Source: Thalassovita autumnalis
Lineage (GTDB): Bacteria; Pseudomonadota; Alphaproteobacteria; Rhodobacterales; Rhodobacteraceae
DNA: 56,122 nt
Reading direction: 5' to 3'
Assembly: GCF_001458255.1 (NCBI RefSeq)
Contig: NZ_CYSB01000023.1
Span: forward strand, 1-56,122
Part shown: positions 37,653 through 47,284 of the stretch, in pieces
Layout: each line of letters opens with the position of its first letter
Position numbering within the stretch: the stretch's first letter is position 1
Made by a program: the position numbers and the translations under genes
The notes under the pieces: generated by a model
Database searches by the model: none
Seen by the model: the letters and a program-made list of their open reading frames with translations, nothing else
What the model was told of the DNA's origin: nothing

Positions 37653-39362
37653 TTAAAAGAAGATGTCATCCAGATCATCCACGTCATCCGACGCCGCGGT
37701 CGGCTCGGGTGCGGCGGCAACCTCCTCTTTGGTTTCTTCCGATTCATCCCCTTTCAGCTGCGAGAACATGACATCCTGAATGTCGCGCTCTGCCTGCATG
37801 GTGTAGCACTTGTGGATCTCGGCCAGATGGGTGGTGAACTCTTCACTGATGATCGCATCTTCCAGCGGCAAAGGCGCCAGGGCGACCTTTTCCACCTGAT
37901 CCAGCAGTTCCAACTCTTCCACGAAGCTCTCGAACGCGTCCGCACTTGAGGTGATCGCATTGGCGATCTGGGGTGCGTCGTTTTCCAGGCTAGGCAGCAG
38001 CTTTTCCAGAACCTCACGGGCCTGCTGCAGCGCAGGGTCTTCCCCTTCCATGCTGCTCAGGTCGTGACCTTCGCCACCTTCTGCTTCGCGGGCCGACCAG
38101 GCCTGCATCTTGGTCTTGGTCAGCTCCATGGTCTCAGCGAACTTTTCAAAGGTCACCGGGGCCTCGGAAATCACCTCATTGATCTGCTGCGAGATCATGA
38201 TCATGTCCATCGCCTGCTTAAAGCCACGGGCACAGGTGATGATGGTGTTAAGCGCCGCCAACTGCATCTGGAACGCATTGTCCGACAGGGTCTTGGACCG
38301 CACCGCCAAAGCGCCATCAGCTTCCTGCAGACGGGCCTGAACACGCTCTTCAGCTTCAGCATTGGCCGCAAAATCAAACGCCTTGCTGTCAATGGGTCGG
38401 GCTGCTGCGGCCAGCGCCAGGGCGCTGTCCTCAAACGAACCGGCAATTTCACGGCACCGCGCCAGGAAGTCATGCTGGCGGTTCGACAGACTGGCAAACA
38501 ACTGACGCGCTTTGCGGGTGTCGGTGATGGTTTCGGTCACCGTTTCCTGCATCTGCGCCCGCGCCAGCAACATCAGGCTGGTCGCTTCGGTCGAATGCGG
38601 ATGATAAAGCGCCGCACGTTCCGAGATGAAACGCACATGTTCAGCACGCTGGCGAGACCGGTCACCGACCTGCAACGCCGAGATCACTTCGGACACGTCT
38701 TTTTCAGCAACCGCTACATATTCCGACAGCCACGACGACGCGGTTGAGGCCGCTTTCATGCCTTTTTCCAGCGCGGTCAGAGCCGCTTCCAGCGCCTTGG
38801 CCTTGGGTTTCAGGGTTGAGAACAGCGCGCGGGCGCGCTCTTCTACGTTCTGGCCCATTTCCTCGGTGGTGGTGACGATGGTGTCGATCACCTCAAACAT
38901 TTCCGACACCAGATTGGTGGCGTCACCGGAAATGTCCGAAATGCTCTCAGCCAGACGCACCAGTTGCGCACCCAGCGCACGGTGGCGGTGGCTTTGCGCA
39001 ATGATGCGGGCGTTCAATGACACGATGTTGGACGACTGAATGATCTTTGACAGTTCTTTCAGCGTCGAAGACATCTTGCGGCCATTGTCACGCAGATCCT
39101 GCACGAAGGCTTTCGCGTCTTTGCTGTTGGCATCAATCTGATCCATCAGCTGAGCGATCGTCGCCTGTTTCTCATTGATGCGAACCAGGTTCTCAGGCTC
39201 AAGCAGGCGGTCCAGATCCGCCACACCTGCGCGCAGGGTCTTGGTCGCATCGAAAGCGAAGAACAGCTTATCTAGGATATCACTGAGGACGCTTTCCATG
39301 CGCAGGAAGGGACCGTCGTTCAGCCCCTGCGCTGCTGCTGGTACACTACGAAAATGCTGCAT
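37653..39362 (-). CDS. Soluble MCP-like protein with two degenerate signalling hairpins
   Basis: A 569-residue, largely helical cytoplasmic protein, last gene of the che operon, starting at the cheB stop. No membrane span or HAMP. A helical hairpin near 105-145 (SNIVSLNARIIAQSHRHR, then LVRLAES) looks like the tip of a chemoreceptor (compare [19 protein letters not shown] in the receptor of this operon), but the key Glu and Arg-Ala-Gly-Glu residues are changed. A second related hairpin lies near 358-400 (QMQLAALNTIITCARGF). Between them is VGDRSRQRAEHVRFI, similar to a motif of atypical MCP-like proteins. Tail is acidic and ends DDLDDIFF. Probable scaffold, adaptor or phosphatase-type partner; role unknown. 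Confidence 0.8.
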   Translation of the reverse strand: MQHFRSVPAAAQGLNDGPFLRMESVLSDILDKLFFAFDATKTLRAGVADLDRLLEPENLVRINEKQATIAQLMDQIDANSKDAKAFVQDLRDNGRKMSSTLKELSKIIQSSNIVSLNARIIAQSHRHRALGAQLVRLAESISDISGDATNLVSEMFEVIDTIVTTTEEMGQNVEERARALFSTLKPKAKALEAALTALEKGMKAASTASSWLSEYVAVAEKDVSEVISALQVGDRSRQRAEHVRFISERAALYHPHSTEATSLMLLARAQMQETVTETITDTRKARQLFASLSNRQHDFLARCREIAGSFEDSALALAAAARPIDSKAFDFAANAEAEERVQARLQEADGALAVRSKTLSDNAFQMQLAALNTIITCARGFKQAMDMIMISQQINEVISEAPVTFEKFAETMELTKTKMQAWSAREAEGGEGHDLSSMEGEDPALQQAREVLEKLLPSLENDAPQIANAITSSADAFESFVEELELLDQVEKVALAPLPLEDAIISEEFTTHLAEIHKCYTMQAERDIQDVMFSQLKGDESEETKEEVAAAPEPTAASDDVDDLDDIFF

Positions 39363-40501
39363 TATTTGGCGCCTTTCACCGCGAGTCTTGCCAGGTGACC
39401 ACGGTCAAACGACGTGATGTTTTCGGCGATTTTTGTCAGCGGCACGGCGCGCTCAGCCGCGCCACGCTCCATAGCTTCGCGGGGCATCCCGTAGACCACA
39501 CAGGACGCTTCGTCCTGGGCAATGGTCGGCGAGCCTGCCTGGCGCATTTCCAACATGCACTGCGCCCCATCATCACCCATGCCGGTCATGATCACGCCCA
39601 TGGCGTTGGCACCAGCCTGGATCGAAAGCGAACGGAACAGCACATCCACCGACGGGCGGTGACGGCTGACCGGCGGGCCATCGATCACACGGCAGGTGTA
39701 GTCGCGGCCGGTCCGCTCCACGATGATGTGGTGGCTGCCGGGGGCCACAACCGCCATACCGCGGGTCAGCTTGTCACCGTCGCGGGCTTCCTTGACGGTG
39801 ATGTCGCACAGTTTGTTCAACCGGTTGGCAAAGGCCTCGGTGAATTTTTCCGGCATGTGCTGCACGATGGCGATCGGCGGGCTGTCAGCCGGCAGCATCT
39901 TCAGCATTTTGGCCAGCGCTTCGGTCCCACCCGTGGAGGCACCAATGCCCACAATCGGCGGTGTTTTCAGCACGGCAGGCGCATTGGGATGGCGCGCCGC
40001 CATGATCACATCTGCCGACTGTTTCTTCAGCGGCTTCAGCTCACGTGCCGGTGGTTTGCGCTTCTTGGCCTTCGGGTTCACCCGCGCATGTGCTGCTGCA
40101 CGAACAGCATCACAGACCCGGTTCATACCCTCATCATCGCTCGACAGGGCGCCGATTGATGACTTGGCCAAGACCTCAACAGCGCCCATTTCCAGCGCCT
40201 TCATCGACGCCGAGGAGCCCTTTTCGGTATGGTTCGAACAGATCACCACAGGCATCGGATGCTGGGCCATGATCCGACGCAGGAAGGTCAGACCATCCAT
40301 GCGCGGCATTTCCACATCCAGCAACATCACGTCCGGCAGCCCTTTACGCATCTTGTCGGCGGCGTCAAAGGGATCCTTGGCCATGTCCACGACCTTCAGG
40401 TCGGGCTGGGTTTCGATCATATTCTTGAGCATGGTGCGCGCGGTGAGGCTGTCCTCAACGATCATCACCTTAATTTGCTCATCACTCGTTACTGCATTCA
40501 T
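39362..40501 (-). CDS. cheB: Chemotaxis protein-glutamate methylesterase/glutamine deamidase
   Basis: Removes methyl groups from chemoreceptors, activated by CheA. 379 residues: N-terminal receiver with D62 (LLDVEMPRMDG), a linker (about 130-190, Lys/Pro rich), and the catalytic domain with GIGASTGGTEAL (Ser nucleophile), IVQHMPEKFTEAFANRL (His) and MTGMGDDGA (Asp). ATG at 40501 has AGGAGG seven bases upstream; a GTG at 40504 overlaps the cheR stop and is too close. Followed directly by the MCP-like gene. Confidence 0.97.
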   Translation of the reverse strand: MNAVTSDEQIKVMIVEDSLTARTMLKNMIETQPDLKVVDMAKDPFDAADKMRKGLPDVMLLDVEMPRMDGLTFLRRIMAQHPMPVVICSNHTEKGSSASMKALEMGAVEVLAKSSIGALSSDDEGMNRVCDAVRAAAHARVNPKAKKRKPPARELKPLKKQSADVIMAARHPNAPAVLKTPPIVGIGASTGGTEALAKMLKMLPADSPPIAIVQHMPEKFTEAFANRLNKLCDITVKEARDGDKLTRGMAVVAPGSHHIIVERTGRDYTCRVIDGPPVSRHRPSVDVLFRSLSIQAGANAMGVIMTGMGDDGAQCMLEMRQAGSPTIAQDEASCVVYGMPREAMERGAAERAVPLTKIAENITSFDRGHLARLAVKGAK

Positions 40502-40503
40502 CA

Positions 40504-41337
40504 CTAGGCCTCCTTGCGGAAGACAGCCGCGGATTTCTGGACCAAACGGGGGTCCGACGCGACCGAGGTTTCTGAGTGGCCCACAAACAGATAACCACCA
40601 GGTTTCAAATGGTCTGTGACCGAAGACACGACCTGGCGCTGAGTGACCTCATCAAAGTAAATCAGCACGTTACGCAGGAAGACCACGTCCAAGTTCTTCT
40701 CTACCGGATAGACCTTGTCCATCAGGTTCATCTGGGCAAAGCCCACCCGATCCCGCAGCTGCTTGACCACCCGCGACAGGGGGCGACCAACGCTGTCATG
40801 GCCTTGTTCCAGGTAGAGCGCCTGCATGTCGTCAGGCACATCAACGATCTCTTCCGGCGTGTAGATGCCTTTGCGCGCTTTGCGCACCACCTCGGTCGAC
40901 AGATCCGTGCCGATGATCGAGTAGGTGAAACCGGGTTTGCGCTTGGCATGTTCGTTCAGCACCATTGCGGTGGTGTAGGCCTCTTCACCCGAAGAACTTG
41001 CCGCCGACCAGACCTTGAACGGTCTGCCTGCAGCATGTTCCGGCAGGACGTTGCGCACCAGATAGTCAAAATGCGCGTCTTCCCGGAAGAAGTCGGTTTT
41101 GTTCGTGGTCATGACGTTGATGATATGGGGCAGTTCTGTTTCCAGCATGCCGTCATTCATCACCATCGACAGATACGTCCGAAGGTCGCGTACACCTAAT
41201 GCCCGAACCCGCTTACGTAAGCGGCCCTCGATCATGGTGCGTTTATTCTCTGGTAACTGGATCCCTGTTTTACTGGTTACAATCTCGCAGAGTTTCTTCT
41301 GCAGTACGCGATCAGCCTCGAGCGTTCCTGTAGTCAT
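40504..41337 (-). CDS. cheR: Chemoreceptor glutamate methyltransferase
   Basis: SAM-dependent methyltransferase that methylates receptor glutamates. 277 residues: an N-terminal helical receptor-binding domain (about 10-75) and the catalytic domain with TTNKTDFFREDAHFDYL, KVWSAASSSGEEAYTTAMVL for SAM binding, and DVVFLRNVLIYF. No tetratricopeptide extension. ATGA overlap with the upstream cheW. Works with cheB for adaptation. Confidence 0.97.
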   Translation of the reverse strand: MTTGTLEADRVLQKKLCEIVTSKTGIQLPENKRTMIEGRLRKRVRALGVRDLRTYLSMVMNDGMLETELPHIINVMTTNKTDFFREDAHFDYLVRNVLPEHAAGRPFKVWSAASSSGEEAYTTAMVLNEHAKRKPGFTYSIIGTDLSTEVVRKARKGIYTPEEIVDVPDDMQALYLEQGHDSVGRPLSRVVKQLRDRVGFAQMNLMDKVYPVEKNLDVVFLRNVLIYFDEVTQRQVVSSVTDHLKPGGYLFVGHSETSVASDPRLVQKSAAVFRKEA

Positions 41338-41861
41338 CCCGCCTCCCGATACTCTTTACTGTCCGTGTCCACTTGATCGTGGAATTCGGAAATTACACCA
41401 GAGCTGAGCATCCCATCGAGATCCAGCACGGTCACAAACTCACCATCACGACGGCCTACACCGGCAACCATGCGGTTGTCCCAGTTCAGCAGGCCTTCAC
41501 GGGCGAACTCCTCCAGTCGGTCGTCGTCCAGACGGGTCACCTCAAACACGCGATCCGCGCGCAGGCCCACCGAATGTTCCTGACCATTGATGTTCACCAG
41601 CAGCACGATGATGCGGGTGTCCGGTTCGTTTTCGCGGTACGGGCGCGCCAGAAGCAGGCGCAGGTCCGCAACCAGGATGCTTTCGCCACGCAGATCGATA
41701 TATCCCAGCAGGAAATCGGGCGTATGCGGCAGCGGGGTGACCGGTTTGGGGTCGAGGATTTCTTTGACGCGCACAACAGGCAGCGCCACTTTCTCTTCGC
41801 CCAGACCACAGGTCAGGTAGGTTTTTTGGACTTCGTCCACAGTTGTCGTCGTATCAAACAC
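41334..41861 (-). CDS. cheW: CheW coupling protein (first copy by position)
   Basis: A 175-residue SH3-like adaptor linking receptors to CheA. Typical features are YLTCGLGEEKVALPVVRVKEIL, PHTPDFLLGYIDLRGESILVADLR and GVGRRDGEFVTVLDLDGML. GTG start with AGGAGG six bases upstream. Longer than the other cheW of the operon, with a C-terminal acidic tail. A 31-codon frame in the preceding gap overlaps its start by eight bases. Stop overlaps cheR. Confidence 0.95.
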   Translation of the reverse strand: MFDTTTTVDEVQKTYLTCGLGEEKVALPVVRVKEILDPKPVTPLPHTPDFLLGYIDLRGESILVADLRLLLARPYRENEPDTRIIVLLVNINGQEHSVGLRADRVFEVTRLDDDRLEEFAREGLLNWDNRMVAGVGRRDGEFVTVLDLDGMLSSGVISEFHDQVDTDSKEYREAG

Positions 41862-41963: not shown

Positions 41964-42464
41964 TTAGTGAAGGCTTTCGTCCGTGGGGACAGCACCAAGA
42001 TAGGTCTCGGCGATCTTCTCCACGTCGATCAGGTTGACAAAACGGTCCTTCCAGCGGCCGATGCCTTTGATGGCACCCTGCGGCCAGCGGGTTCCGACCG
42101 ACGGCACCTTCTGGATGCTCTCAGGATCCAGCGCCAGCACCGCATGAACCTTCTCGGCGATCACGCCGATGGTCATGGTGCCTTCTTCCAGCGCCAGTTC
42201 CAGAACCAGAACACGGGTGTCGATGTCGAAGGGCTTCTGCTCCATCTCAAAGAGGGGGCGCAGATCGGTGACCGGCAGAACCACGCCACGCACGTTGATC
42301 AGACCTGCCGAATAGGGGCCTGCCAGCGGCACACGGGTCAGCTTCGGCGGTTCCAGCACTTCGCGCAGGATCCGGGTGGGCACGACCAGCAGTTCGCCGC
42401 CCATTTCGAAGGCCACCATGTCCTTCAGATCGTCTTCGCTTGCAGTTACCAGTTCAAGGGTCAT
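41964..42464 (-). CDS. cheW: CheW coupling protein (second copy)
   Basis: A 166-residue CheW, one of two in this operon. Landmarks: DMVAFEMGGELLVVPTRILREVLEPPKLTRVP, then GLINVRGVVLPVTDLRPLFE and GIGRWKDRFVNLIDVEKIAE. Starts by ATGA overlap with the cheA stop. The two copies are clearly different in sequence, so they may connect different receptors or the MCP-like protein to CheA. Confidence 0.95.
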   Translation of the reverse strand: MTLELVTASEDDLKDMVAFEMGGELLVVPTRILREVLEPPKLTRVPLAGPYSAGLINVRGVVLPVTDLRPLFEMEQKPFDIDTRVLVLELALEEGTMTIGVIAEKVHAVLALDPESIQKVPSVGTRWPQGAIKGIGRWKDRFVNLIDVEKIAETYLGAVPTDESLH

Positions 42465-44491
42465 GCTGCCTGCTCCTTATTGTCGTGATCCAGACCTTCG
42501 GCCTTGACCAGTTGGGCCACGTCTACGATCAGCGCCACATCGCCATCGCCCAGGATGGTTGCGCCGGAGAAGACGTTGAGGCGGCTGTGCATAGGCGACA
42601 GCTGTTTGATCACGGTCTGGTAGGACCCGATGATACGGTCCACGGCCAGGCCGATCTGCTGATCGCCGGTACGGACCAGAACCACTTTGGGGTGATCCGC
42701 GCGGGTGCCGCCGGTTTCAAAGATCTCACGCAGGCGCATGATCGAAATCAGCTTCTCACGCAGTTCAACAGTGGTGGTCGACTCGGTGCCGTCGCGGATC
42801 TCTTCAGGCTCTTCTACGATGCCCTCAACTGCTGCCAGCGGCACGGTGTAACGCTCTTCGCCAACCTGCAGCAGCAGGCCGTCGATGATCGCCAGAGTGA
42901 GCGGCAAGCGCAGGGTGAACGAGCTGCCCTGACCCAGTTCCGATTCAATCTCAACCGAGCCACGCAGCGCCTCAACGGTGGATTTCACCACATCGGTGCC
43001 AACCCCGCGACCCGACAGATCGGTGACCTGTTCCGCGGTCGAGAAACCGGGCGCCATCAGCAGATGGAAGATCTCATTGCGCGACAGGTTTGCATCTGCC
43101 GAGATCATGCCGCGATCAACCGCACGGTTGAAGATGAACTCAGGATCCAGACCTTTACCGTCGTCCTGAACCGAGATCAGAACATCAGCACCCGAGTAGG
43201 AGGCTTTCAGGCGCACCGTACCACGGGCGGGTTTGCCGGCGGCGACGCGGGTGTCGTTATCTTCCAGACCGTGGTCCACAGCGTTCCGCAGGATGTGCAC
43301 CAGCGGATCCGACAGTTTCTCGATAACGGTCTTGTCCAGTTCGGTCTCTTCGCCTTCGATGACGAAATCGAAGTCCTTGCCGGTTTTGCCCGCCAAGTCA
43401 TGGGCCAGACGCTGGAAGCGGCCGGTGATCGAGGACATCGGGGTCAGGCGGATCGCCATGGTGGTGTCCCGCAGACCCAGCGCCAGACGCTGAATGTCTT
43501 CGACAACCTCGGTCAGGTTCGGATCGTTCAGCTTCTGCGCCAGATCCGACAGACGGGCCTCGGCAATCACCAGTTCGCCAACGCGGTCCATGATGTCATC
43601 CAGACGCTCGGCCGAAACACGCATCTGCACGTTGGCAGAGCCGGATTTCTTACCGCCCGACTTCTTGGCCTCAGCTTTAGGTGCCTCAGTCTTGACCGCT
43701 TCTGCCGGGGCAGCTTCGGCGTCTACCGGGACGGCTTCGGCTTCAACGGGGGCCGCTTCGACAACCGGGGCAGCGCCACGGATTGCGGTCAGCTCCAGCT
43801 CCATCGAGTCTTCGTGGAACATGAAGACATCGCGGATGTCACCTTCGTCAGCCGACGGCGGCAGGATCATTTCCCACGCGGTGTGCAGCTCATTCGGCTT
43901 CAGCTCCGCCAGCGCAGGCAGACCGTCCAGCAGCGCTTCAACCTTGGTGTCCGGGCCGCCGATTTCCATCAGCTCTTCCAGGATGGCCACCGGGTTGCCC
44001 CCGATTTCCATGAACTCAGGCGGCAGTTTGAAGCGCAGCTTCCAGCCTTCCAGTTCACCTTCGGCGGCAGGGGCCTCTTCAGCGGCGTCGCCGGCTGCTG
44101 CGGCTGCCGCGGGGGCCGCGCCACCCGAGGTTACAGCGCCCAGGGCGGCCTTCAGTTCGGCGTCCTGTTCGGTCGGCGGCTCTTCACCTTCCAGCAGGGC
44201 GACGATCAGGTCATAGGCCTTCAGCGACACCGCGATCAGATCGGGGGTCACAACGGCATTGCCCGAACGCACCTGTTCAAAAGCGGCTTCGAAATCGTGA
44301 ATGAACTCAGCCAGACGGGCAAAGCCGAACATGGCGCCGGTGCCTTTGAGGGTATGCAGGTCACGGAAAACCTGTGTCACCAGCTCCATATCATCCGGAG
44401 TTGAGTTCAGCTGCAGGAGGCATTCCTGCAAGCTCTCAATCAGCGCTTCCGTCTCCTGGCGGAAGATTTCCTGGGTTTCTTCATCAATCAT
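42461..44491 (-). CDS. cheA: Chemotaxis histidine kinase CheA
   Basis: A 676-residue kinase. Order: HPt domain with phosphorylated H46 (DLHTLKGTGAMFGF), an Ala-rich linker, a P2-like CheY-docking region (about 150-250), a Glu/Ala/Pro-rich linker (about 255-300), dimerisation domain (VQMRVSAERLDDIMDRVGEL), HATPase with HILRNAVDHGLE, DDGKGLDP and GRGVGTDVVKS, and the CheW-like regulatory domain at the C terminus. All motifs are intact. Overlaps both cheY and cheW by four bases, so cheY-cheA-cheW are translationally coupled. Confidence 0.97.
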   Translation of the reverse strand: MIDEETQEIFRQETEALIESLQECLLQLNSTPDDMELVTQVFRDLHTLKGTGAMFGFARLAEFIHDFEAAFEQVRSGNAVVTPDLIAVSLKAYDLIVALLEGEEPPTEQDAELKAALGAVTSGGAAPAAAAAAGDAAEEAPAAEGELEGWKLRFKLPPEFMEIGGNPVAILEELMEIGGPDTKVEALLDGLPALAELKPNELHTAWEMILPPSADEGDIRDVFMFHEDSMELELTAIRGAAPVVEAAPVEAEAVPVDAEAAPAEAVKTEAPKAEAKKSGGKKSGSANVQMRVSAERLDDIMDRVGELVIAEARLSDLAQKLNDPNLTEVVEDIQRLALGLRDTTMAIRLTPMSSITGRFQRLAHDLAGKTGKDFDFVIEGEETELDKTVIEKLSDPLVHILRNAVDHGLEDNDTRVAAGKPARGTVRLKASYSGADVLISVQDDGKGLDPEFIFNRAVDRGMISADANLSRNEIFHLLMAPGFSTAEQVTDLSGRGVGTDVVKSTVEALRGSVEIESELGQGSSFTLRLPLTLAIIDGLLLQVGEERYTVPLAAVEGIVEEPEEIRDGTESTTTVELREKLISIMRLREIFETGGTRADHPKVVLVRTGDQQIGLAVDRIIGSYQTVIKQLSPMHSRLNVFSGATILGDGDVALIVDVAQLVKAEGLDHDNKEQAA

Positions 44492-44856
44492 GCGCCCACC
44501 ACCTTTTTGACAACGGCAAGCAGCTTGGCCTGCTCAAAGGGTTTCATCACCCAGCCCAGGGCACCGGCGGCCTTGGCCTGGTTCTTCAGGTCACCTTCGC
44601 TTTCCGTCGACAGGAAGATGATCGGCACGCCCGAGGACGAGGGATCATTGCGATAGGCTTCGATGAATTCGATTCCAGTCATGTTCGGCATGTTCTGGTC
44701 GGTGATGACCATGTCGAACCGTTTGGCTTTGGCGGTGTCGAGCCCCTGTGCGCCGTCTTCACACTGGGTAACCTCATAGCCTTCCTGCTGTAGGGTCATT
44801 GCGACCATTCGCCGGACGGAGGGCGAGTCGTCGATAATCAGGATTTCTTTACTCAT
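44488..44856 (-). CDS. cheY: Chemotaxis response regulator CheY
   Basis: A 122-residue single receiver. Acidic pocket DD at 9-10, phospho-acceptor D53 (VITDQNMPNMTG), T84 (FLSTESE) and the conserved Lys in MKPFEQ. ATG at 44856 is preferred over an upstream in-frame start near 44940 that would run into the previous gene. Stop overlaps cheA. Controls the flagellar motor, or another output, by phosphorylation from CheA. Confidence 0.96.
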   Translation of the reverse strand: MSKEILIIDDSPSVRRMVAMTLQQEGYEVTQCEDGAQGLDTAKAKRFDMVITDQNMPNMTGIEFIEAYRNDPSSSGVPIIFLSTESEGDLKNQAKAAGALGWVMKPFEQAKLLAVVKKVVGA

Positions 44857-44884
44857 TGAGATACTACCTTCAGCAATTTGGGTC

Positions 44885-45175
44885 TTAGGCCGCTTGGGCC
44901 AGGGCATTGTCAAAGCCCGTGGTGGCGCACATCGCGCCAAAGGGGGCTAATTCTTTCAACGTCAGGACGGCGTCGGATTTAACCTTTCCTTCGCGGACAG
45001 CCGCACAAAGCAGCTGACCAAGGCCGAAAATCACGGCGCTGGGGGTGTCCTCCGCCAGATCCGCTTCAAAGGTGGCGTCATCCCCACCCGCCGCGGCCAG
45101 TTGATCGCGAAGCGACACCAGAGCGTCAAAGGTGCTGGTGCTGTCCAGCGAGATCTGAAGAACGGTCTCAGACAT
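44885..45175 (-). CDS. STAS-domain-like protein of the che operon
   Basis: A 96-residue small protein with a STAS-like fold pattern (VLQISLDSTSTFDALVSLRDQL, then LEEDTPSAVIFGL-type segment, then TLKELAPFGAM). Such anti-anti-sigma-like proteins occur beside che genes in alphaproteobacteria. The conserved phospho-serine motif of SpoIIAA is not obvious, so it may act by binding rather than by phosphorylation. Between mcp and cheY, 28 bases before cheY. Function is unknown. Confidence 0.7.
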   Translation of the reverse strand: MSETVLQISLDSTSTFDALVSLRDQLAAAGGDDATFEADLAEDTPSAVIFGLGQLLCAAVREGKVKSDAVLTLKELAPFGAMCATTGFDNALAQAA

Positions 45176-45290: not shown

Positions 45291-46892
45291 TTACGAAGCG
45301 AGTTTGAAATCGCCTGCGTCTTCATCGTCGGATCCAAGATCCAGCATCGGACCGGTCTCTTCTTCGGCAGCGGGGGCCGGGGTGGCTGCCCCATCCACGC
45401 GGAAGAAGGAGATCACATCGGCCAGTTGCTCAGCTTGGCTCGACAGCTCGGTCGCTGCCGAAGACATCTCTTCTGCGGCCGAGGTGTTTTCCTGGGTCAC
45501 GCTGTCCAGACGCTGCACCGACTCGTTGATCTGGGTCGAACCGATGGCCAACTCACGCGAGGCGCCGGTGATGTCGCTCACCAGCGAGGAGGTTTTTTCA
45601 ATGTTGGGCACCAGGGTCTCCAGCATTTCACCTGCCAGAGCCGCGCTCTTCACGGTGTCGCCGGACAGTTTGGAGATTTCAGCCGCCGCCTGCTGGCTGT
45701 TTTCAGCCAGTTTGCGCACCTCGGAGGCCACCACAGCAAAGCCACGACCATGTTCACCCGCACGGGCCGCTTCTACCGCTGCGTTCAGCGCCAGGAGGTC
45801 GGTCTGACGGGCGATTTCCTGCAGAACGTTGATCCGCTCACCGATGGTTTTCATCGCTTTCACGGCGTCAGCTACGGCGGTGCCGGAACGCTGCGCCTCA
45901 TCTGCGGCACGGCGCGCCATGTCTTCGGTGGCAATCGCATTTTCCGAGCTGGCCGAGATATTGGCCGACATCTGTTCAACAGCCGAAGATACCTCTTCGG
46001 TCGAACCGGCCTGAACCGATGCACCTTCGGACAGCGATTCCGAGGTACCTGCCATCTGATCCGCACCTGCGGCCAGATTGCGCACTGCGGTCGCGACATT
46101 GTCTACGGTTTCGCGCAGTTTCAGAACCATGCCGTTCTGGGCGTTCAGCAGATCCGCAATCTCATGGTTGCCTTTGACGTCAACGGTGTTGGTCAGATCG
46201 CCATCCGCCACCTGACGCGCCATCGCGATCGACTGGGTCAGACCACGCGACAGGGTGCGCAGGATCATCGCGGCGGAAACCAGCGCGATCACACCGGCAA
46301 TCACCGCTGCGGTCAGCAGATTGGTCCGGGTGTTTGCATACTGCACCGCCGACTGTTCGATCGAGGCATTCAGCTCAGCCGAGAAAGAGGTCTGCAGATC
46401 ACGGGCAATGATTGCGGCCTCACCGATCGCGGTTGCAGCATCGTGGTGATAGATCTCATTGGCCTGGCTGTCGCCTTCCAGCTCAAACTCGATGGCAAAT
46501 TCGCTCTGCTCGATGAACTCACCTATTTTCAGCACCAGCTGATCCAGCTTGGCCTTTTCTTCCGCGTTAGCCAGTTTGCGCAGCTCGTCGATCACTGCCA
46601 TCAGTTGGTAGTTCTGCGTTTCAATCTCACCCTGCAGCTTTTCGATGCGGTTCGGGTCTTCCTCGCCACCTTCCCAGCCAATCAAAATGTCGGCGGTGTC
46701 CAGACGGATGCCTTGCCCCAGAATGAAAATCTGCTGAGCAAAAAGAAGCTTCGAGGCATCTTCTTTGGCCACTCGGTTCAACGAGTCATTGGCAGCGCTA
46801 AGCTGCTGAAGCGCGACAAAGACGCTGCCCGCAAAGATGAGCAACAGCGCGGCAAAAGTCATCGCCAGTCGGGCTTTGATGGTTATACGCAT
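45291..46892 (-). CDS. Methyl-accepting chemotaxis protein
   Basis: A 533-residue receptor: N-terminal span (about 9-30), periplasmic four-helix bundle (about 31-190, Glu/Gln rich), second span (about 195-215), HAMP (about 216-268), and a cytoplasmic signalling domain whose tip [20 protein letters not shown] is canonical. There is no C-terminal CheR-binding pentapeptide; instead an acidic tail ending DAGDFKLAS. Start at 46892 chosen for GAAGGA upstream; residues encoded up to 46925 are not conserved. First gene of the che operon; ligand unknown. Confidence 0.95.
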
Positions 46893-47284
46893 TGGGGGGT
46901 ATCCTTCTGGGGCCTGCAGAGGCACTGGAATTAGGGTAGGGAGCAGACACGATCAATCAGCGCACGCTGGCCGGCGGCGCTGAGACGCGAAGGAGCAAAA
47001 CGGTTGCTCAGATCTTTGGGAAATACCGAAACCACGGACAGACACCCAACTGCACTAAATCACTACACACACGGCACATCGCGCGCCGTGACATTAACAA
47101 CGGCAGGAGACCCGGCCATTTTCCGTGATTCTCTGGTTTTTTTGGGTCAACTAGGAATGAGTCTAGTTTTGGGGGCATACTTTTGGGCAGTCGAAACGCC
47201 CCAAGGCATTGGTTTTGAGGGATCAGACCAAGACAAAAGCCCGGGTCATGCCCGTTCCAAGTGCACCAAAGGTATTGGAAACGC
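46893..47284. other. Intergenic region upstream of mcp
   Basis: A 392-base gap between mcp and the 3' end of the minus-strand kinase gene. It must hold the che operon promoter. A hairpin CACGGC-N9-GCCGTG lies at 47070-47090 and a weak hairpin CGGG/CCCG at 47242-47254 followed on the minus strand by CTTTTGTCTT, which may terminate the kinase gene. No coding frame was convincing. Confidence 0.45.

Follow-up and report, generated by a model that had tools for sequence, protein, structure and literature searches.

What does the last gene of a che operon contribute when its product matches no Pfam or NCBIfam family at the family's own cut-off and its genome has no CheZ? The question is raised by P0001, a 569-residue protein encoded in a 56,122-nucleotide stretch of Thalassovita autumnalis DNA (the window, meaning the whole stretch analysed), where the gene order is mcp, P0009, cheY, cheA, cheW, cheW, cheR, cheB and finally P0001. 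The first-pass annotation put the protein at the end of the operon but gave no strand; the open reading frame is 39362..37653, on the minus strand, the plus-strand frame at the locus being interrupted by stops. The genes are as follows.

37653..39362, minus strand: P0001, TlpC-family gene, 569 aa, ATG start at 39362
39362..40504, minus strand: cheB (PF01339, E 4.9e-65)
40504..41337, minus strand: cheR (PF01739, E 7.9e-55)
41334..41861, minus strand: cheW, second copy (PF01584, E 3.6e-31)
41964..42464, minus strand: cheW, first copy (PF01584, E 6.2e-28)
42461..44491, minus strand: cheA (Hpt, H-kinase_dim, HATPase_c and CheW domains)
44488..44940, minus strand: cheY (PF00072, E 9.5e-29, from residue 33)
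44885..45175, minus strand: P0009, 96 aa, without a convincing family
45291..46925, minus strand: mcp with an ordinary signalling domain (PF00015, E 1.7e-33)

The ATG of P0001, a single-copy gene in its genome, overlaps the cheB stop by one base. The cheY frame is listed from a TTG, and its start is likely the ATG at 44856. P0009, STAS-like by eye only, has a counterpart at the equivalent place, between mcp and cheY, in several relatives (L041-L050). The absence of CheC, CheX and CheZ, first noticed for the window, extends to the whole genome, in which profile searches gave 0 matches for each; within P0001 itself there is no match to PF04509 (CheC), PF13690 (CheX) or HAMP.

P0001 is, as judged by profile and gene position, a member of the TlpC family of Rhodobacter (Cereibacter) sphaeroides. 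The likeness is traced through Cereibacter johrii, where a 580-aa family member follows cheA-cheW-cheW-cheR-cheB (L098), and through genome G051, with an equivalent operon and also a 580-aa member (L183); it takes in the full-length profile, the place after cheB, the length (580 aa), a DxxxQ motif and the tail. The relationship to the L098 protein is nevertheless distant, about 20% identity in alignment A3. The full-length A3 profile (37 rows, taking 36 of the 80 fetched loci) scores 578 bits in the genome of P0001 and 557 bits with the G051 member, P0001 being itself a row of A3 and the members of A2 and A3 having first been found with P0001 alone. Elsewhere in G051 a 567-aa MCP lies beside CheA proteins of 1095 and 399 aa (L182). 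Because lengths of 580 and 567 agree with those given for R. sphaeroides TlpC and TlpT in the available text of PMC3964821, we infer that G051 is R. sphaeroides or a near relative.

The first-pass annotation had said that its view of the protein would be undercut if the protein strongly matched a known, characterised family. TlpC has indeed been named and localised, to the cytoplasmic cluster of R. sphaeroides (PMC3964821, PMC6829392), but the available parts of these two papers report no activity for it. It is described as being without a typical transmembrane domain, sensory domain or glycine turn (PMC6829392, in part). Published work regards it as a receptor with an influence on the form of the cluster, which tells against the enzymatic role proposed below. 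The sources differ on its partner: PMC10924463 suggests control of CheA4, whereas PMC6829392 has interaction with CheA3 and CheW4 (both as available in part). The accessible text of PMC2924250 states that R. sphaeroides lacks a CheZ homologue and that CheY6 is its only chemotaxis regulator with a known phosphatase. TlpC is not called CheZ-like in the available portions of PMC10924463 and PMC2924250, which are open-licence literature, and earlier notice elsewhere is possible.

A contig scan confirmed 86 family loci, of which 80 were kept, in Rhodobacterales, Devosia and relatives, Sphingomonas and Novosphingobium; the nearest named relative of P0001 is in Thalassovita mediterranea (82%). Position is well conserved. 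The gene directly upstream is cheB in 76 of the 80, the remainder being two at contig ends (L089, L107), one that adjoins a different che set (L096) and one with no che match found (L110). With P0001 alone, matches were obtained in 10 of 149 genomes of its own taxonomic family, its own included. The A3 profile raised this to 26 of 149 at E <= 1e-12; 20 of these score at least 75 bits and the other six are partial, confined to the C-half, at 47-54 bits. At class level profile A2 matched 167 of 385 genomes at E <= 0.001, most of the listed matches being partial and in the receptor-like region, and among those listed only L012, L013 and L014 (truncated) are strong besides the own genome. A tblastn search of plasmids with P0001 returned nothing, although three family members occur there. 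One of them, L186:8109-9857 (+), on a Sphingomonas parapaucimobilis plasmid, lies directly after cheB and is annotated 'hypothetical protein'; another, L188:8978-10708 (-), on an Agrobacterium leguminum plasmid, adjoins a ParA family gene and is annotated 'chemotaxis protein'. A second, 595-aa copy, L184:11087-12871 (-), is found beside a cheY-cheA-cheW-cheR-cheY set in a Cereibacter-type genome, and L096 and L107 are similar.

Five features of the protein matter for what follows.

38928..39050, minus strand: first degenerate receptor tip, residues 105-145, SLNARIIAQ; N-half match to MCP-FQD hairpins
38634..38678, minus strand: putative CheZ-like helix ALQVGDRSRQRAEHV, residues 229-243, with D234-Q238 at 38649-38663
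38163..38291, minus strand: second degenerate receptor tip, residues 358-400, AALNTIITCAR; C-half match to MCPs
37773..37805, minus strand: conserved block YTMQAERDIQD, residues 520-530, family form YTMxxERxIHD
37656..37688, minus strand: acidic-hydrophobic tail, DDVDDLDDIFF at residues 559-569, a proposed peptide for the capture of CheY-P

Both degenerate tips had been picked out at first pass, at about 105-145 and 358-400, and both are borne out by hhalign, the second against MCPs in general and the first against MCP-FQD proteins (MCPs with a QFQDxxxQ helix) only. The C-half aligns with MCPs at 93.7%, E 2e-7 (reversed control 0.4%), and the family profile finds the MCP structure 2ch7 in the PDB at E 2.8e-15 over profile positions 280-520. 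The N-half reaches a non-significant 8-12% with ordinary MCPs, and 97.9%, E 4.9e-13 over 187 columns, with an MCP-FQD alignment of three sequences (reversed control 1.1%). As a single sequence P0001 has a weak match to the MCP 3g6b (E 0.0016, residues 44-217), and a protein A coil scores better (2.7e-5). The Pfam searches proposed at first pass gave a divided answer: PF00015 is detected at E <= 0.01 in 10 of the 37 members of the alignment, at best 4.7e-5, and has no match in P0001 itself. The two halves also match each other (93.8%, E 1.7e-7); this likeness is partly coil bias, because reversed controls reach 60-68%, and an N-half/C-half repeat was not accepted as a clean signal. P0001 resembles MCPs in having two MCP-type hairpins and departs from them in its degenerate tip residues, in the lack of a PF00015 match and in the apparent addition of a CheZ-like helix and a tail.

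The hairpins invite a structural interpretation, namely that a degenerate receptor packs with CheW and CheA and shapes the cytoplasmic cluster, DxxxQ serving for packing or docking with no catalysis. The C-half is a clear MCP relative, as this would have it, and in R. sphaeroides TlpC interacts in two-hybrid assays with itself, CheW4 and CheA3, its loss giving a diffuse cluster (available text of PMC6829392). We nonetheless consider this account unlikely, as it leaves unexplained a D and a Q, four residues apart, that belong to the few strictly invariant positions while MCP tip residues vary, and it accounts neither for the tail nor for the resemblance between the FQD helix and CheZ.

The segment VGDRSRQRAEHVRF, originally described as joining the two tip-like segments, does lie between them; it also holds the DxxxQ motif (D234, Q238). 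Both residues are invariant in 52 of 52 aligned rows, a set made of A3, 12 later matches and three plasmid members (L014, truncated, L165, with an over-long frame, and the near-duplicates L152-L161 were omitted from alignments). In the 37 rows of A3 only Q231, D234, Q238, N372, E525 and R526 are strictly invariant. Where the neighbours of the motif have been lost, as in L046 (VVDRTNQR) and L120 (MGDTLRQQ), the D and the Q are both kept. The pair is likewise kept in 20 of 20 own-family genomes with a match of at least 75 bits, these having been found with a profile of the whole protein, motif columns included, and the motif as a pattern is present in 78 of the 80 scanned loci, a count that is not independent since the motif was one of the two patterns of the scan. 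The three plasmid members, reached from cheB to the next large gene without use of the motif, carry DxxxQ in 3 of 3 regions fetched.

The spacing, on an assumed helix, is that of the CheZ catalytic pair. In E. coli CheZ (MAQDFQDLTGQVIKRM) these are D143 and Q147, which we take to be the catalytic residues. DXXXQ is the phosphatase motif, Asp165 and Gln169 in Azorhizobium CheZ, with an adjacent AXXFQ (PMC7750401, in part). The distant family members L168, which reads AAMQFSDRLAQRLDHV (QFSDRLAQR), and L171, which reads TAIQFADRLAQRLDHL (QFADRLAQR), are close to alpha-CheZ, EACNFQDITGQRITKV (NFQDITGQR); P0001 itself has VG before the D where CheZ has FQ. A simple helical wheel gives a mixed picture, with D234 and Q238 off the hydrophobic face yet I227 and V223 on the D234/Q238 side. 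From the tip asparagine to the motif D is 117 residues in P0001 and 111-119 in the family (115 in 32 of 52 rows).

Proteins that bridge to this helix were collected with a motif helix profile (A4, 23 rows), which matched at E <= 0.001 in 89 of 398 phylum genomes. Loci were obtained for 30 of the matches and 26 were examined (L193-L218), 14 of them in other proteobacterial classes (L205-L218): a TlpC-like protein (L205), a PAS-MCP (L213), four proteins between 569 and 588 aa in length, four MCPs of 384-408 aa, and four short proteins of 178-201 aa, one of the last open at a contig end. In the three of the 384-408 aa MCPs that were scanned PF00015 is at E about 1e-25 or better. All 14 proteins end in F, most with DIELF, DITFF or similar, while L213 is without an acidic end. 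QFQDxxxQ lies exactly 115 residues past the tip in 4 of 4 MCP-FQD proteins, and in the 3 of 3 examined for neighbours (L222-L224) cheY and then cheA are downstream. In these three MCPs, L222:3752-4975 (+), L223:3793-5004 (+) and L224:4593-5723 (-), each about 400 aa long, the tip is of the ordinary kind, QFQDxxxQ lies at +115 and the tail is DITFF or DDVTFF.

Among the ten neighbourhoods fetched, L225 follows cheW-cheR-cheB, che genes are near L227 and L228, and L226 is accompanied by one receiver-like gene and one MCP-like gene. At the stand-alone FQD loci L219-L221 there is no che gene beside the motif protein; Pfam assigns four L220 and three L221 neighbours to M16 peptidases and to methyltransferase, nitrite-reductase, Fe-S and molybdopterin proteins, with one left without a family. 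The proteins encoded at L208, L210 and L214 (also L219-L221) are 189-201 aa long, carry QFYDxxxQR and end in a DIELF tail, again with no che match beside them. A 132-aa frame beside cheR, L227:10597-10992 (-), with SLQFEDMVTQ and a DIELF tail and no Pfam match at E <= 1e-4, is perhaps a minimal CheZ-like protein.

The FQD helix from 13 sequences aligns with CheZ at 95.4%, E 1.7e-8 and a score of 48.1, against 15.7 for reversed CheZ and at most 16.2 for 60 permutations; by subtype the values are 53%, 73% and 97%. The FQD set was retrieved with the TlpC motif profile and not with CheZ, and its match to TlpC (98.6%) is therefore expected. The TlpC motif window alone gives 24.3% with CheZ, score 23.7, a score reached by none of 60 permutations (reversed 0.7%). 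Of 26 sliding windows those with the motif are best forward, at 20.9-23.6%, yet reversed CheZ gives 31-36% at other windows. The best CheZ alignment of the N-half lies away from the motif. Against the PDB the FQD profile has CheZ (1kmi, chain 118-161) at E 4.6, rank 16 of 18, and CheZ is absent from the best 60 of 109 PDB matches to the family profile. Two stronger propositions were rejected. Formal CheZ membership fails, PF04344 having no match in P0001 at E <= 1 nor in seven relatives at E <= 10, and direct full-length homology of TlpC and CheZ is not significant (hhalign 1.9%, E 0.025). What argues for a CheZ-like helix is the invariance, the permutations and the bridging FQD set. In sum P0001 shares with CheZ (PF04344) a DxxxQ helix and an acidic-hydrophobic C-terminus, and differs in having no Pfam match, receptor-like hairpins and 569 aa rather than 214 aa.

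The tail ending in DDLDDIFF was correctly read at first pass, which missed its likeness to that of CheZ. The C-terminal peptide of CheZ binds CheY. In E. coli it is QDQVDDLLDSLGF, acidic with a hydrophobic end and akin to the P0001 tail in composition and position. If the tail type is defined by three or more acidic residues among the final 11 together with an end that passes from acidic to hydrophobic, 73 of 79 family members have it (L110, truncated, excluded), versus 1 of 514 CheA, CheW, CheR, CheB, CheY and MCP frames of these loci. Comparison with the FliM N-terminus was uninformative. In the YTMxxER block shortly before the tail, E525 and R526 do not vary in any of the 52 rows; YTMxxERxxH recurs outside the alphaproteobacteria, in 5 of the 14 relatives examined there (L205, L206, L211, L212, L215).

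Such a tail could, as part of a CheY-P buffer or adaptor, bind CheY-P close to the array or steer phosphotransfer, with no hydrolysis. CheY binding alone would explain why the tail is conserved, and R. sphaeroides has several CheYs along with a CheY6-specific phosphatase in CheA3 (PMC2924250, as available), but the invariant DxxxQ helix is left unexplained and we think this very improbable. Almost no credence goes to the remaining idea, that DxxxQ is the ordinary D..TQ element of a typical MCP descending helix and like CheZ by chance: D...Q of the IQQLDKVTQ type does occur in ordinary MCPs of the family loci (88 regex matches at one place among 99 MCPs, a first regex having matched 91 of 525 che-hit frames), but its register differs, at +93 from the tip asparagine as against +111 to +119 in the family and +115 in 4 of 4 MCP-FQD proteins, the spacing on which it was rejected, and ordinary MCP windows give CheZ 3.8%, score 19.2, aligned in another part of CheZ.

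The first-pass annotation had offered a decoy, a scaffold, a CheA inhibitor or an uncharacterised CheY phosphatase, unranked. The evidence favours the last of these combined with array docking: P0001 is probably, though with a good deal of room for doubt, a TlpC-family, MCP-derived soluble protein that acts on CheY-P as a phosphatase of the CheZ type while docked at the receptor array. This draws together what sequence comparison shows of family, receptor homology, invariance, spacing, tail and synteny. The proposed scaffold is two degenerate MCP hairpins in one chain, with DxxxQ on the return helix of the first. The tail would capture CheY-P as the CheZ C-terminal peptide does, and D234 and Q238 would enter the CheY active site and help water to hydrolyse the aspartyl phosphate. 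The hairpins would no longer sense or drive kinase; they would keep the phosphatase close to CheW and CheA, and signals would thereby end at their site of origin.

There are precedents for phosphatases in CheZ-less alphaproteobacteria. CheT of Sinorhizobium meliloti has DXXXQ and a CheZ-like predicted structure; the likeness is by description only, and receptor-like halves are not mentioned in the available text (PMC12654446). In R. sphaeroides, which also lacks CheZ, the phosphatase domain of CheA3 acts on CheY-P (PMC2924250, in part). As a relative of TlpC it was rejected, the CheA3-like protein of G051 being unmatched by the TlpC profile and without A..[FY].D...Q.

How far might a docked phosphatase of the proposed kind account for signal termination where CheZ is lacking? 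CheZ is found in 0 of 149 genomes of the taxonomic family and 109 of 289 in the class. All 20 genomes with a TlpC match of at least 75 bits fall within the 77 of 149 that have a CheW match, and in these 20 of the 77 the TlpC member could fill the CheZ gap. The other 57 have neither CheZ nor a TlpC match of at least 75 bits, so other signal-ending routes must exist and a TlpC-type phosphatase is not generally required.

A wider proposal is more tentative. The proteins described here may belong to an unrecognised, widespread receptor-phosphatase hybrid class in Proteobacteria, defined by an MCP hairpin, DxxxQ about 115 residues past the tip and a C-terminal CheY-capture peptide, in which receptor state could gate the phosphatase directly; a single protein would then both organise the array and terminate the signal it gives rise to. 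Its putative members would be the roughly 400-aa MCPs whose genes come immediately before cheY and cheA, TlpC, which would have gained a second hairpin, and the shorter forms. TlpC might in that case supply the phosphatase still missing for CheY3, CheY4 or CheBs in CheZ-less Rhodobacter.

A CheZ-type motif would give the puzzling TlpC of Rhodobacter a testable job. If TlpC proves to be a phosphatase of the CheZ type built on a receptor scaffold, the ending of signals in a model organism could be probed through two residues. MCPs with the equivalent element elsewhere would, if this is true, be receptors that can shut down the output they generate.
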